A DNA stretch of 64,000 nucleotides, from the NCBI RefSeq assembly GCF_021233415.1, contig NZ_CP089466.1, forward strand, positions 2,046,001 through 2,110,000, written 5' to 3'. The position numbers and the translations under genes are program-made. Within the stretch, counting starts at the first letter, position 1; each line of letters begins with the position of its first letter. Positions 4,831-11,585 of the stretch are shown piece after piece. The notes below the pieces were generated by a model that was given only the letters and a program-made list of their open reading frames with translations, did not search any database and was not told where the DNA came from. The stretch comes from Halobacterium litoreum (lineage in GTDB: Archaea > Halobacteriota > Halobacteria > Halobacteriales > Halobacteriaceae).

Positions 4831-6104
4831 TCCTCGAACACCTCCATCGTCGGCGCGCCGTCGATGTCGCGCGCCGTCGACTCCTCGACGACGGTGTCGA
4901 GGTCCTTGTCGCCGCGCCCCGAGAGGTTCACCACGACCGGGCCGTCACCGTCGTACTGTTCCAAGTACGCGACGGCGTGACTCGATTCGAGCGCGGGGAT
5001 GATGCCCTCCTCGCGGGAGAGCCGGTGGAACGCCTCGAGCGCGGCGTCGTCGTCCACGTTCACGGGTTCGACGCGACCCTCGTCCACGAGGTGTGCGAGT
5101 TCCGGGCCGACGCCCGCGTAGTCGAGGCCCGCCGAGACGGAGTGGGACTCGACGATTTGGCCGTCGCCCGTCTGGAGGAGTTTCGTGCGCGCGCCGTGGA
5201 GCACGCCCTCCGTGCCCGTCGAGAGGCTGGCGGAGTTCGGCGCGTACCCCTCGTCGGCGTCCACGCCGAGACTGGAGCCGCCCGCCTCGACCGCGAGCAG
5301 GTCGACGTCCGGCGCCGCGTCCTGGGTGCCCTCGGGCGCTCCGGCGAGCGCGGCGCTCCCGACGAACGCCGAGAACGCACCCATCGTGTTCGACCCGCCG
5401 CCCGCGCACGCAATCACGGCCTCGGGGAGTTCGCCGAGGCGCTCGCGGGACTGCTCGCGGACCTCCTCGCTGATGACCGACTGGAAGTCACGCACCATCG
5501 CCGGGAACGGGTGCGGGCCGACGACGCTCCCGATGACGTAGTGCGTGTCCTCGACGTTCGTCGCCCAGTCCCGCATCGTCTCGTTGATGGCCTCCTTGAG
5601 CGTCCCCGAACCCACGTCCACGGGGTTGACCTCGGCGTCGTGGAGGCGCATCCGGAAGACGTTCGGGCGCTGGCGGTTCACGTCGGTTCGACCCATGTAA
5701 ATCTCGCAGGGCATGTCGAGGTACGCACACGCCATCGCCGTCGCGGTGCCGTGCTGGCCGGCGCCGGTTTCGGCGACGATTCGCTCTTTGCCCATGTACT
5801 TCGCGAGCAGGACCTGTCCGAGCGCGTTGTTGAGTTTGTGCGCGCCGCCGTGGAGCAAGTCCTCACGCTTGAGGTAGACGTCGAAGCCGTAGCGCTCGCT
5901 GAGGTTGTCCGCGTGCGAGAGCGGCGTCGGGCGGCCGCCGAACTCGCGGATGCGCGACCGGAAGTCGTCCACGAAGCCGTCCTCGTTGTCGAGCACGTAG
6001 CGCTCGTAGGCGTCCACGAGTTCCTCGACGGCCGGCATCAGCACCTCGGGGACGTACTGGCCGCCGTAGTCGCCGAACTTCCCGGGGCGGTCGGACTCGC
6101 TCAT
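4827..6104 (-). CDS. trpB: Tryptophan synthase beta chain
   Basis: The 425-residue PLP enzyme condenses indole with serine. [10 protein letters not shown] provides the PLP Lys (K90), ETGAGQHG the catalytic Glu (E112), and GGGSN (235-239) the phosphate-binding loop. The N-terminus [20 protein letters not shown] is typical of the canonical TrpB1 group that partners TrpA. The start ATG overlaps the trpC stop (ATGA), and the stop overlaps the trpA GTG start, so the three genes form a tight operon. A short acidic insert (EGTQDAAPD) follows the GGGSN region. Confidence 0.97.
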
Positions 6105-6865
6105 GCGGACACCAGCCTCCGCGTGTTCGACTCCACGTCGCCGGCCTCGGCGTCCATGATGGCGCTCCCGACGAGCAAGCCGTCGGCGCCGGCCTCGCGC
6201 ATCCGGCGGGCGTCGGCGGGCGTCGTCACGCCGCTCTCGGCAATCAGTGTCACGTCGTCCGGAGCGTGGGGCGCCACCGTCTCGAAGGTTTCGAGGTCGA
6301 CCACGAGTTCGGCGAGGTCGCGGTTGTTCACGCCGACGAGGTCGGCGCCCGCGTCGAGCGCCTGCTGGAGTTCGTCGCGGTCGTGGACCTCCACGAGCGC
6401 GTCGAAGCCGCGGTCGCGGGCGGCCGCGAGCATCCCCGCGAGGTCGTCGCCGAGGAACCGCGCGATGAGCAACACGGCGTCGGCCTCGACGGCGTCGAGT
6501 TGGGCCTCGCGGAGCAGGAAGTCCTTGCGGAGGACGGGCACGTCGACGGCGTCGCGGACGGCGCGCAGGGCGTCGGGGCTGCCACCGAAGTGCTCGGGTT
6601 CGGTGAGCACGGAGATTGCGGCGGCGCCGCCTTCGACCATCTCGCGGGCGAGCGCGGCGGGGTCGTCGCGGCGCTCGCCGTCGGTCGTGGGGCTCGTCGG
6701 TTTCACCTCGGCTATTGTCGGTACCCGGCCGTCGGCGTCGGCGGCCGCGAGCGCATCGGGCAGCGAGCGCGGGGACACCGACAGGCGTCGGTCGGGGGCG
6801 TCGCGCTCCCGGGCGGCGTCGAGGATGGACCGCACCGCGGGCGCGAGGTCCGCTGTCTCGTTCAT
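6101..6865 (-). CDS. trpC: Indole-3-glycerol phosphate synthase
   Basis: The 254-residue TIM-barrel decarboxylase makes indole-3-glycerol phosphate from CdRP, the step before Trp[10 protein letters not shown] (catalytic Lys K55), VLRKDF (K114) and GVNNRDL are diagnostic, as is LIAESGV near the C-terminus. It is the first gene of the trpCBA operon. The ATG at 6865 has a TATA-like TTATGTA centred about 30 nt upstream, consistent with a leaderless message. TrpD, TrpE, TrpF and TrpG are not in this window. Confidence 0.95.
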
Positions 6866-6878
6866 CGTTGTTCATTGA

Positions 6879-6907
6879 TGCACTAGATTGTACATAAGAC
6901 TTGTGCA
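6879..6907 (-). promoter_or_regulatory. trpC promoter with TGTRCA direct repeats
   Basis: On the minus strand, TTATGTAC (about 6892-6899) is placed as the TATA box of trpC. It overlaps the palindrome TGTACA (6889-6894). A second related box, TGCACA on the minus strand (6902-6907), lies 13 nt upstream, and TGATGCAC (6876-6883) lies downstream. The TGTACA hexamer is the reported TRP-box core of the methanogen repressor TrpY; use by a haloarchaeal regulator is only an inference. Confidence 0.45.
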
Positions 6908-6949
6908 GTTCGCCGAACCTACAAGGCCGCGAGACGCGACAGTCCACGC

Positions 6950-7405
6950 ATGGACGCGGCCGGCATCTACGCGCGGTACTTCGACTCGCTGGACTGCTAC
7001 GTGCAACTCGGCGTCGCGGGCGACCGCGTCATCAGCGTCTCCTTCCCCGCCGAAGTTCCGGGGGACGCCGACGACGACCACGAACTGTTCGACCGCATCG
7101 CGGACTACCTCGCCGGCGGCGAGGACCACTTCGACGACGTGACCGTCGGCCTCACCGTTCCCACCGACCAGCGCGCCGTCCTCGAAGCCGTCCGGAACGT
7201 CCCCCACGGCGAACGCATCTCCGTCGAGCGCCTGCTCCGGAAGGTACCCGACGCCGACCCCGACAGCGAGGAGGACCGCCAACTGGTGCGGGACGCGCTC
7301 GCTGCCAACCCCGTCCCGCTGCTCGTTCCCGACCACCGCATCCGGAACGCGCCCAGCGGCGCGCCCGACCGCGTCGCCCGCAGGCTCCGCGAAATCGAGT
7401 CCTGA
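6950..7405 (+). CDS. MGMT/ATL-like DNA repair protein lacking the acceptor cysteine
   Basis: A 151-residue protein with the DNA-binding domain layout of O6-alkylguanine-DNA alkyltransferases: [15 protein letters not shown] (helix and turn) followed by [12 protein letters not shown]. In true MGMTs the last motif is PCHRV, with Cys accepting the alkyl group; here it is P127-D128-H129-R130, so suicide methyl transfer is not expected. The protein is also short after this motif. It resembles alkyltransferase-like proteins that flag lesions for excision repair, although those usually carry Trp or Ala at this position. It is divergent from trpC and its stop abuts that of the next gene. Confidence 0.7.
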
Positions 7406-8077
7406 CTACTGACCGTGGACGACGAACTCGACGGCGTTCACGACGTAGTGTGCGACCACGGGCGCGAGTAGGCTCCCGGTCCCGAGATAGACGGCACAGA
7501 GCGCCAGGCCGAGCAGCGACGCCACCACGACGCCCGTGAACCCCTGTGCGGTGTGTGCGGCGCCGAACGCAACGCTTGCGGGGACGACGAGGAGCCACGG
7601 GTCGACGCCGAATCCGGTGGCGAACGCGCCCACCAGCACGCCGCGGAAGAGCAGTTCCTCGAACCCGGCGACTGCCGGGAGCGCGACGCCGAGCAACAGC
7701 GCCCACCCGGCGAGCGAGTCGGGCGCGAGCGCGTCCCGGAGCGACGAGTCGTAGGAGAGGCCGGCGGCGTCGAGCGCGCGCATCGTCGCCTCGTTCCCGG
7801 CGGCGAGCGCGACGCCGGCACCGACGCCGACGGCGACCGCGTCGACGGAGACGCCGGGGCTGACAGCGGACGCGGGGACGCCGGTCGCCCACCCGACGGC
7901 CACCAGGAGGGCGCCGACGACCGCCTGTGACGCGGTCGTGTTCGCGAGCAGCGCCGTCGAGGAGAGGTCTGGCGCCGCGTCGTCCGCGAGCATCGCCGCG
8001 GACTGCCGGGTAAGCGCCACCAGCGCGAGCGTCACGACCACCGCGAACGCGCCGAACGCCGTCCAATCGGTCGCCAT
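7406..8077 (-). CDS. CPBP-family intramembrane metalloprotease
   Basis: The 223-residue multi-pass membrane protein carries the CAAX protease/bacteriocin-processing (Abi, CPBP) motifs EELLFRG, FGAAHTAQG and HYVVNAVEF, which supply the Glu/Glu and His metal ligands in the membrane. About six to seven hydrophobic segments are visible. The substrate is unknown; relatives cleave prenylated proteins, process peptides or act in immunity. The ATG at 8077 lies 39 nt after the end of the upstream MFS gene, so the two may be co-transcribed. Confidence 0.85.
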   Translation of the reverse strand: MATDWTAFGAFAVVVTLALVALTRQSAAMLADDAAPDLSSTALLANTTASQAVVGALLVAVGWATGVPASAVSPGVSVDAVAVGVGAGVALAAGNEATMRALDAAGLSYDSSLRDALAPDSLAGWALLLGVALPAVAGFEELLFRGVLVGAFATGFGVDPWLLVVPASVAFGAAHTAQGFTGVVVASLLGLALCAVYLGTGSLLAPVVAHYVVNAVEFVVHGQ

Positions 8078-9473: not shown

Positions 9474-11549
9474 CTACTGCGGACTCGGACTGCCGCCGGT
9501 GGCGCCCGAGTCGACCTTCCCCTCGAAGGCCTTGCCCGTGATGGACTTCAGGCGGTCGACGAGCGAGTCCTTCTCGGGTTCGCCGACCAGCGCGATGTCG
9601 AGCACCTCGCTGATGTGCGAGACCGGGATGATTTCGATCTGCTCCCGGTACTCGTCCTCGATCATCACGTCCTGTTCGTTCGCGGCCGGGATGATGACGC
9701 GCTCACAGCCCGCCTTCGCCGCGGCCTCGATCTTGTGCGTGACGCCGCCCACGGGCAACACGTCCCCGCGCACCGATAGGCTCCCAGTCATCGCGAGGTT
9801 CTGGGAGATGGGCGCGTTCTCCAGCGCGGAGATGACGGCCGTCGCCACCGTGATGGAGGCGGAGTCGCCGTCCACGCCCTGGGTCTGCACGAACTGCACG
9901 TGGATGTCCTTCTGGGAGATGTCCTCGTCGGAGAACTTCTTGATGATGGCGGAGACGTTGTCCACGGCCTCCTCCGCGTTCTCCTTCAGTTGGCCGGTGG
10001 CGATGACCTCGCCGCCCTCGCCCTGCCGGGGCGTGACCTCCGCCATCACGGGGAGCATGATGCCGGAGTCGCCGCCCATCACGGCCAGCCCGTTGACGCG
10101 GCCGACCGCCTCGCCGTTCGAGACCTTCAACTCGTAGTCCTTCCGGCGCTCGATGTAGTCGTCCGCGAACTGCTGTTCGATGGACCGCGAGCGCTTTTTC
10201 GCCTGCAACACGTCGTCGCGCTTCGCGTACTCGTGGCCGCGAGACCGAGCGATGTCGCCCGCGACGCGGACGAGGCCACCGAGGTCGCGCAGTTCCAGCG
10301 TCAGGTGGTCCTTGCGGCCGGCGCGGCGCTTGGCCTCGAGGATGATCTCGCGGACGGCGTCCGGCTCGAAGTCCGGCAACTGGCCGTCCTTCTCGACCTC
10401 CTGGGCGACGAAGCGCGCGTACTTCCGGCGCATCTCCGGCGTGTCCTCGATGGTGTCGTCCATGTACACCTCGTACCCGTACCCGCGGACGCGGGAACGG
10501 AGCGCCGGGTGCATGTTCTCCATCGCGTCCATGTTCCCGGACGCGACCATGATGAAGTCACACGGCACGGGCTCGGTCTGCACCATCGCGCCCGAGGAGC
10601 GCTCGGACTGCCCGGTGATGGAGAACTTCCCCTCCTGAATCGCCGTCATCAGCTTCTGCTGGCTGCGGATGTCGAGCGTGTTGATCTCGTCGATGAACAG
10701 CACGCCCTTGTGCGCCTTCTGGATGGCGCCGGCTTCCACGCGGTCGTGACTCGGCGTCTCCATCCCGCCACTCTGGAACGGGTCGTGGCGGACGTCGCCG
10801 AGCAGCGCGCCGGCGTGAGCGCCGGTCGCGTCCTCGAAGGGCGCAATCTGCCGGTCGGCGTTGTTGATGAGGAGTTTCGGCACCATGGCGTCGCTCCCCC
10901 GGTTCGAGTACCGGAACCCGAGGTAGATGACGCCGGCCGCGAGAATCCCGAGCAGGACGTTGTTCGCGATCAACAGCGCGTAGCCCACGACGAGCAGGAT
11001 GATGATCCACATGAGGAACGACCGCATCTGGTTGCGCTTGCGGGCTTCCTCCTGGTGGGCGTCGACGATCTGCTCGCCCTTCCCGGCGGGCACCGTTCGG
11101 ACCTTCGGTTCGTTCGAGTCGTCCGGGTTGTGGTAGACGAGAACGTCCTGCAGACTCTCCTTCGGGAGGAGGTGGCTCATCGCCTTCGCGAGCAGCGACT
11201 TCCCCGTCCCCGGGGAACCGATCATCATCACGTGGCGGTGCTGTTTCGCCGCCCGCATGATGATGTCGCGGGCCTCCTCCTGCCCGATGACTTGGTCGAC
11301 TAGTCGGTCGGGGACCTCGATGTCCGACGTGTCGTCGATTTCGAGGCCGCCGAGCAGGTCGTCCTCGGCGATTTCCTCGTTGATGTCCACGTCACCCTCG
11401 ACGCCGACCTCGCTCCCGAGGTCGTCGAGGTCTTCGACGGTCTCGACGCCGTCAGCCATCGAGCCGTCCTCGGACCCGGAATCTGACGGCTCTTCGCCGC
11501 CGTCGGGGTCGTCGTGAAGGGGCGTGTCCTTCGTCGATTCGTTGCTCAT
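9474..11549 (-). CDS. lonB: ATP-dependent membrane protease LonB
   Basis: The 691-residue archaeal LonB is a membrane-anchored AAA+ Ser-Lys protease; in haloarchaea it is known to be essential and to control membrane lipid and protein turnover. An acidic N-terminus precedes Walker A GSPGTGKS (111-118). Two transmembrane helices (about 178-195 and 197-212) interrupt the AAA+ domain, followed by Walker B VLFIDEIN. The protease dyad is S563 (GDSAS) and K606 (THKIEAA), with the 43-residue spacing of bacterial Lon. The ATG at 11549 is preferred over an in-frame GTG at 11576. Confidence 0.96.
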
Positions 11550-11585
11550 AGAAGTTGTTTCGACAGTCGAAAACACGGGTGGGCG

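Follow-up and report, generated by a model that had tools for sequence, protein, structure and literature searches.

Proteins of the MGMT fold are known as alkyltransferases or, when the acceptor Cys is missing, as lesion sensors. The archaeal alkyltransferases SsOGT (4zye and 4zyd) and S. tokodaii OGT (1wrj) have much in common with the haloarchaeal protein described here, which we call the Asp-type protein: a two-domain fold along the whole length, the Asn hinge, a PxHR motif, and a C-terminal Glu. However, the acceptor Cys, flipping Tyr, Arg finger, helix Gly, and Gly-Tyr/Phe loop of archaeal OGTs are all missing from it.

ATLs (Atl1, the E. coli ATL, and the V. parahaemolyticus protein 2kif) likewise have the MGMT C-terminal fold without the acceptor Cys. 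PMC10779285 describes ATLs as having no N-terminal domain and no Asn hinge, with Tyr and the HTH Arg finger conserved. The Asp-type protein is the opposite of ATLs in all four respects: the N-terminal domain is present, the Asn hinge (N120) is invariant, and both the Tyr and the Arg finger are gone. At the acceptor position, ATLs have Trp (the usual residue) or Ala, whereas the haloarchaeal protein has Asp, a residue that the preliminary description rightly set apart from the known ATL substitutions.

A further likeness is to the tags SNAP-tag and SsOGT-H5 (3kzy, 6ga0, and 8aes), whose recognition helices follow a similar pattern (AVK/VR-T-AL...NP) and have no Arg finger; unlike the Asp-type protein, these tags are man-made and keep the Cys. 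They presumably also keep the Tyr and the loop. We take 6ga0 and 8aes to be SsOGT-H5, and assume the identity of its five mutated residues, from entry titles and printed alignments. A PDB search with the family profile gave these three entries E-values about tenfold better than those of wild-type SsOGT and human MGMT. According to PMC7216122, the five HTH mutations of SsOGT-H5 abolish DNA binding. The helix changes of the Asp-type protein appear to resemble those engineered into both tags to abolish DNA binding, an analogy that we regard as suggestive.

The canonical haloarchaeal MGMT occurs in the same organisms, belongs to PF01035, and also has no Arg finger. Unlike the Asp-type protein, it keeps Cys, Tyr, Gly131, and the loop in 29/29 loci. 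Among the papers listed by searches of the open-licence PMC literature, none was on this Asp-type family.

Here, we characterize this family. In our judgment, it is probably, though by no means certainly, a haloarchaea-wide, vertically inherited pseudo-alkyltransferase that is held under purifying selection and has a new, non-flipping role. If so, a third state of the fold, in which acceptor, flipping residues, and loop are lost, is conserved across a whole class and shows that the MGMT fold can be repurposed.

An MGMT-fold protein with Asp at the acceptor position

The window, that is, the whole stretch of 64,000 nucleotides of Halobacterium litoreum DNA that was analyzed, contains the following gene:

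6950..7405, + strand: haloarchaeal Asp-type MGMT-fold protein (putative pseudo-alkyltransferase), 151 aa, from the ORF list

The open reading frame starts with ATG and carries the motif P127-D128-H129-R130. Its protein exceeds the curated PF01035 cut-off narrowly (28.2 bits against 27; E = 1.7e-6) and falls below that of the NCBIfam ogt model (22.3 against 46.4 bits). The source genome yielded no other PF01035 match; the same search was positive in 14/14 control genomes.

An AlphaFold2 model built from 63 sequences (this protein plus the named loci) has a pLDDT of 94.4 and a pTM of 0.87. VIA-align superposes it on DNA-bound SsOGT (4zyd) over 138 residues at 1.9 A (Z = 17.8), and on the S. pombe ATL (3gva) over 73 residues (Z = 8.2). 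The N-terminal domain is modeled, with the structural alignment beginning at residue 3-4. Neither VIA nor Foldseek returned a non-MGMT fold with a comparable score, an absence that is not proof. The profile match and the two-domain model place the protein in the MGMT-fold superfamily. The preliminary description had proposed this fold, with Asp in place of the acceptor Cys and an intact NPVP stretch before the motif, and had called for structural modeling; the three features are confirmed.

DSSP assigns helix letters to residues 128-130, so that Asp128 opens a short helical turn in the predicted structure. A helix start readily accommodates any of Asp, Ser, Thr, and Gly, and this would fit the replacements seen at this position (see below). 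The geometry of the pocket around Asp-His-Glu is predicted from alignment.

Residues retained and lost

The residues considered are listed below, as placed by alignment and, for Asp128, by the sequence itself.

7331..7333, + strand: GAC codon of Asp128, at the alkyl-acceptor Cys position (human C145)
7334..7336, + strand: His129 (human H146), invariant in 117/117 and 30/30 orthologues
7397..7399, + strand: Glu150 (human E172), invariant in 117/117 and 30/30 orthologues
7307..7309, + strand: Asn120 (human N137, the Asn hinge), invariant in 117/117 and 30/30 orthologues
7289..7291, + strand: Arg114 of the recognition helix, at the human G131 position
7223..7225, + strand: Val92 at the human Y114 position, where the base-flipping Tyr is lost
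7352..7366, + strand: short PSGAP segment (residues 135-139) replacing the Gly-Tyr/Phe active-site loop

The human numbering N137, H146, and E172 is in part our assumption. It is in line with PMC10779285.

We compared these positions among 113 main-clade, 5 deep-lineage, 29 canonical haloarchaeal, and 20 outgroup rows, with one mis-cut row (L046) excluded; another mis-cut row, L147, adds wrong letters, its acceptor motif being PDHR. The Y114 position is Tyr in all deep (5/5), canonical haloarchaeal (29/29), and outgroup (20/20) rows and Val in 89/113 main-clade rows. Only four rows of a 117-row orthologue census have Tyr there, all from deep lineages. The G131 position is Gly in 49/49 Cys-type MGMTs (canonical haloarchaeal and outgroup) and Arg in 98/113 main-clade and 5/5 deep rows. 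The Gly-Tyr/Phe loop is found in 0/113 main-clade rows, against 54/54 deep, canonical, and outgroup rows. The Arg finger is gone from the Asp-type family, its position being variable. This loss alone is a weak argument against DNA activity, because canonical haloarchaeal MGMTs (L032-L061), which keep Cys and Tyr, also have Val, Ile, or Gln at that position in 29/29 loci.

Of the features that define AGT/Ogt enzymes, the protein thus has the Asn hinge and the His-Glu pair (N120, H129, and E150). It has Asp in place of the acceptor Cys of PCHR, which is present in 2/148 orthologues, and Val92 and a variable residue in place of the base-flipping Tyr and the Arg finger. This reading frame is probably misannotated when it is called a methylguanine repair enzyme.

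The preliminary description had also raised the possibility of a lesion sensor. Such a protein would bind O6-alkylguanine DNA without repairing it and hand the lesion to UvrABC, as Atl1 and the E. coli ATL do. The missing acceptor Cys, the MGMT fold, and the structural match to the S. pombe ATL are consistent with this role, as are the two UVR-domain genes of the source genome (presumably uvrB and uvrC) and the lack of any second PF01035 gene. We nevertheless consider an ATL-like sensor unlikely: the protein has no Tyr, Arg finger, or active-site loop, it does have an Asn hinge and an N-terminal domain, and its recognition helix is acidic and has Arg for Gly. The mean net charge of the HTH segment is -5.6 in 107 Asp forms and -1.4 in 28 canonical haloarchaeal MGMTs (L046, L060, and L147 dropped out at the motif cut of the charge, codon, and dN/dS analyses), although acidic surfaces are general in halophiles.

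Distribution and selection

Of the 391 genomes sampled from the haloarchaeal class, 390 contain an orthologue. The acceptor residue was read in 148 genomes, made up of the 117-row census, 30 further genomes weighted toward odd lineages, and one deep genome (G702): it is Asp in 132, Ser in 8, Thr in 5, Cys in 2, and Gly in 1. The census, in which all 86 genera are covered, has Asp in 108/117 full-length orthologues. It leaves out L001 (which repeats the locus described here), L090 and L146 (partial), and L151 (the same gene as L147). Among the 30 additional genomes, picked partly for odd lineages, 24 have Asp. The best named loci, from genera including Halobacterium, Haloarcula, Halorubrum, Natrinema, and Haladaptatus, have Asp in 80/80, a count biased by a scan pattern that itself required D or S. 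That pattern was based on an alignment; a pattern built from the single protein gave 74 matches, none of which encoded a relative.

Asp is encoded by GAC in 81 orthologues and by GAT in 26. The use of both codons shows that Asp is maintained at the protein level. Asp is thus conserved among haloarchaeal orthologues, a check that had been proposed from the single sequence, and the frame problem or sequencing error that had been considered is contradicted by the recurrence of the same protein across the class. The one Gly genome (G226) has the motif PGHR (L337). In genus g48, the six genomes read (L116, L315, L316, L328, L335, and L336) have PTHR in five cases and PSHR in one.

The variation at the acceptor position in some lineages might indicate that alkyl transfer continues through another residue, or that the gene is dying and on its way to being lost. 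Either is very improbable. A conserved alternative Cys is absent, Cys16 of the H. litoreum protein being Cys in only 10/117 orthologues. A dying gene is at odds with presence in nearly every genome, with the invariant motifs, and with dN/dS values well below 1 (0.05-0.38 in 12 pairs). The Asp-type protein is under purifying selection, and its fold, Asn hinge, and His-Glu pair are retained.

Evolutionary origin

Cys at the acceptor position occurs only in genomes G021 and G285. Together with the Ser forms G218, G382, and G702, these make up families f5 and f11. In a tree of the marker LonB, which took in four of these five genomes, f5 and f11 are sister to all other sampled haloarchaea (support 98/95 and 99/96), followed by f9. 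In the protein tree, where L046 remained as an odd long branch, a branch with 100/100 support has the Asp clade on one side and the outgroup together with the deep Cys and Ser forms on the other. Since both Cys forms belong to lineages that branch below all other haloarchaea, Cys is ancestral and was lost early. Cys orthologues, which the preliminary description had expected to signal a sequencing error, do therefore exist, but they represent the ancestral state. The protein was inherited vertically from a Cys-type archaeal MGMT; the change to Asp took place on the stem leading to the main radiation of haloarchaea, and Ser, Thr, or Gly are later changes.

The marker gene itself lies nearby in the window:

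9474..11576, - strand: lonB, used for the marker tree

It and the MGMT-like gene lie no more than 7 kb apart in 19/28 haloarchaeal genomes, three deep ones among them, and this proximity supports orthology. In the deep families, the MGMT-like gene lies directly behind tbp (L091, L148, L149, L150, and L262), and one outgroup locus, L276, has a TBP match near its MGMT gene.

The canonical Cys-type MGMT is a separate gene on a different branch of the tree. Matches of at least 80 bits to it occur in 37/116 haloarchaeal genomes, leaving 79/116 with none at this threshold, one of which (G054) has a partial 62-bit match. Judging from gene content, most of the class may lack direct reversal of O6-alkylguanine; the missing matches bear on how haloarchaea handle the lesion.

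Possible functions

The reading that we favor is a pseudo-alkyltransferase with a non-flipping role. Its sequence changed in two stages. In the ancestor common with the deepest lineages, the recognition helix had already lost its Arg finger and exchanged its DNA-packing Gly for Arg. Later, on the stem of the main radiation, Asp replaced the acceptor Cys, Val or some residue other than Tyr replaced the flipping Tyr, and a GPSAAP-like sequence took the place of the Gly-Tyr/Phe loop. The resulting protein would neither transfer alkyl groups nor flip damaged bases from duplex DNA. Its remodeled Asp-His-Glu pocket would serve another, binding-type role toward a protein or a small ligand, and Asp128 would mainly stabilize the pocket instead of accepting methyl groups, with Ser, Thr, and Gly tolerated in its place. 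The deep Cys and Ser forms provide a natural series for reconstructing the change from Cys to Asp.

Some further considerations weigh against this reading. The deep Cys forms, in which Cys, Tyr, and the loop are retained, already have Arg at the G131 position, so the helix may be compatible with alkyl transfer. In addition, the invariant His and Glu could reflect retained chemistry.

New chemistry had been suggested for this protein from the outset. Asp128, His129, and Glu150 might act on a small molecule instead of duplex DNA, with Asp either as a nucleophile (forming an alkyl ester that is then hydrolyzed) or as part of a metal site. The prevalence of Asp next to the invariant His129 and Glu150 would agree with this, as would a helix like that of tags that do not bind DNA and still react with free benzylguanine. 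Yet Ser, Thr, or Gly replace Asp in several lineages, the guanine pocket has lost the Tyr and loop lining it, and we found no precedent, so that we give such chemistry a rather small chance. Because Asp, though preferred, can be replaced and His129 and Glu150 are invariant, an essential Asp nucleophile is unlikely; a new chemistry in a broader sense is conceivable.

A bolder version of the favored reading, which we put forward tentatively and doubt more than we believe, is that a single conversion of the MGMT scaffold took place at the base of the main radiation of haloarchaea. The product would be a near-universal protein taken off damaged bases in duplex DNA, with its Asp-His-Glu pocket turned to some new ligand or reaction. 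It would be nature's counterpart to the SNAP-tag.

Gene neighborhood

The gene is flanked in the window by the following features, identified from the ORF list (trpC), profile matches, and comparison of loci:

6101..6865, - strand: trpC (IGPS), conserved divergent neighbor
6866..6949, no strand: intergenic region common to the MGMT-like gene and divergent trpC, with TGTTCA at 6869-6874 and TGTACA at 6889-6894, both on the trpC side
7406..8077, - strand: CPBP/Rce1-type protease gene, frequent convergent neighbor

The neighbor count, made on 120 loci, includes partial and duplicate rows. The CPBP gene was considered as an ancestral neighbor, but it was not seen in the deep loci.

The MGMT-like gene is divergent from trpC in 156/204 loci, and TGTACA occurs in 123/156 of these intergenic regions, against a shuffle mean of 6.0. 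In loci with trpC located elsewhere or outside the flank retrieved, TGTACA is found upstream of the MGMT-like gene in only 2/48 cases (the counts 204, 156, and 48 include some genomes twice). The divergent arrangement with its TGTACA boxes, together with the Arg gained in the recognition helix, might suggest a transcription regulator of the divergent trpCBA operon that reads TGTACA boxes and senses an indole-type ligand in its old pocket. We regard such a regulator as most improbable, given that the boxes go with trpC and that the gene has no adjoining trpC in deep lineages, where it stands behind tbp. TGTACA is known as the box of the unrelated regulator TrpY. As it stays with trpC and not with the MGMT-like gene, we read it as a trp promoter element. 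Paired TGTACA-type boxes, about 20 bp apart, are conserved just upstream of trpC across haloarchaea and probably serve trpCBA as an operator or promoter element.
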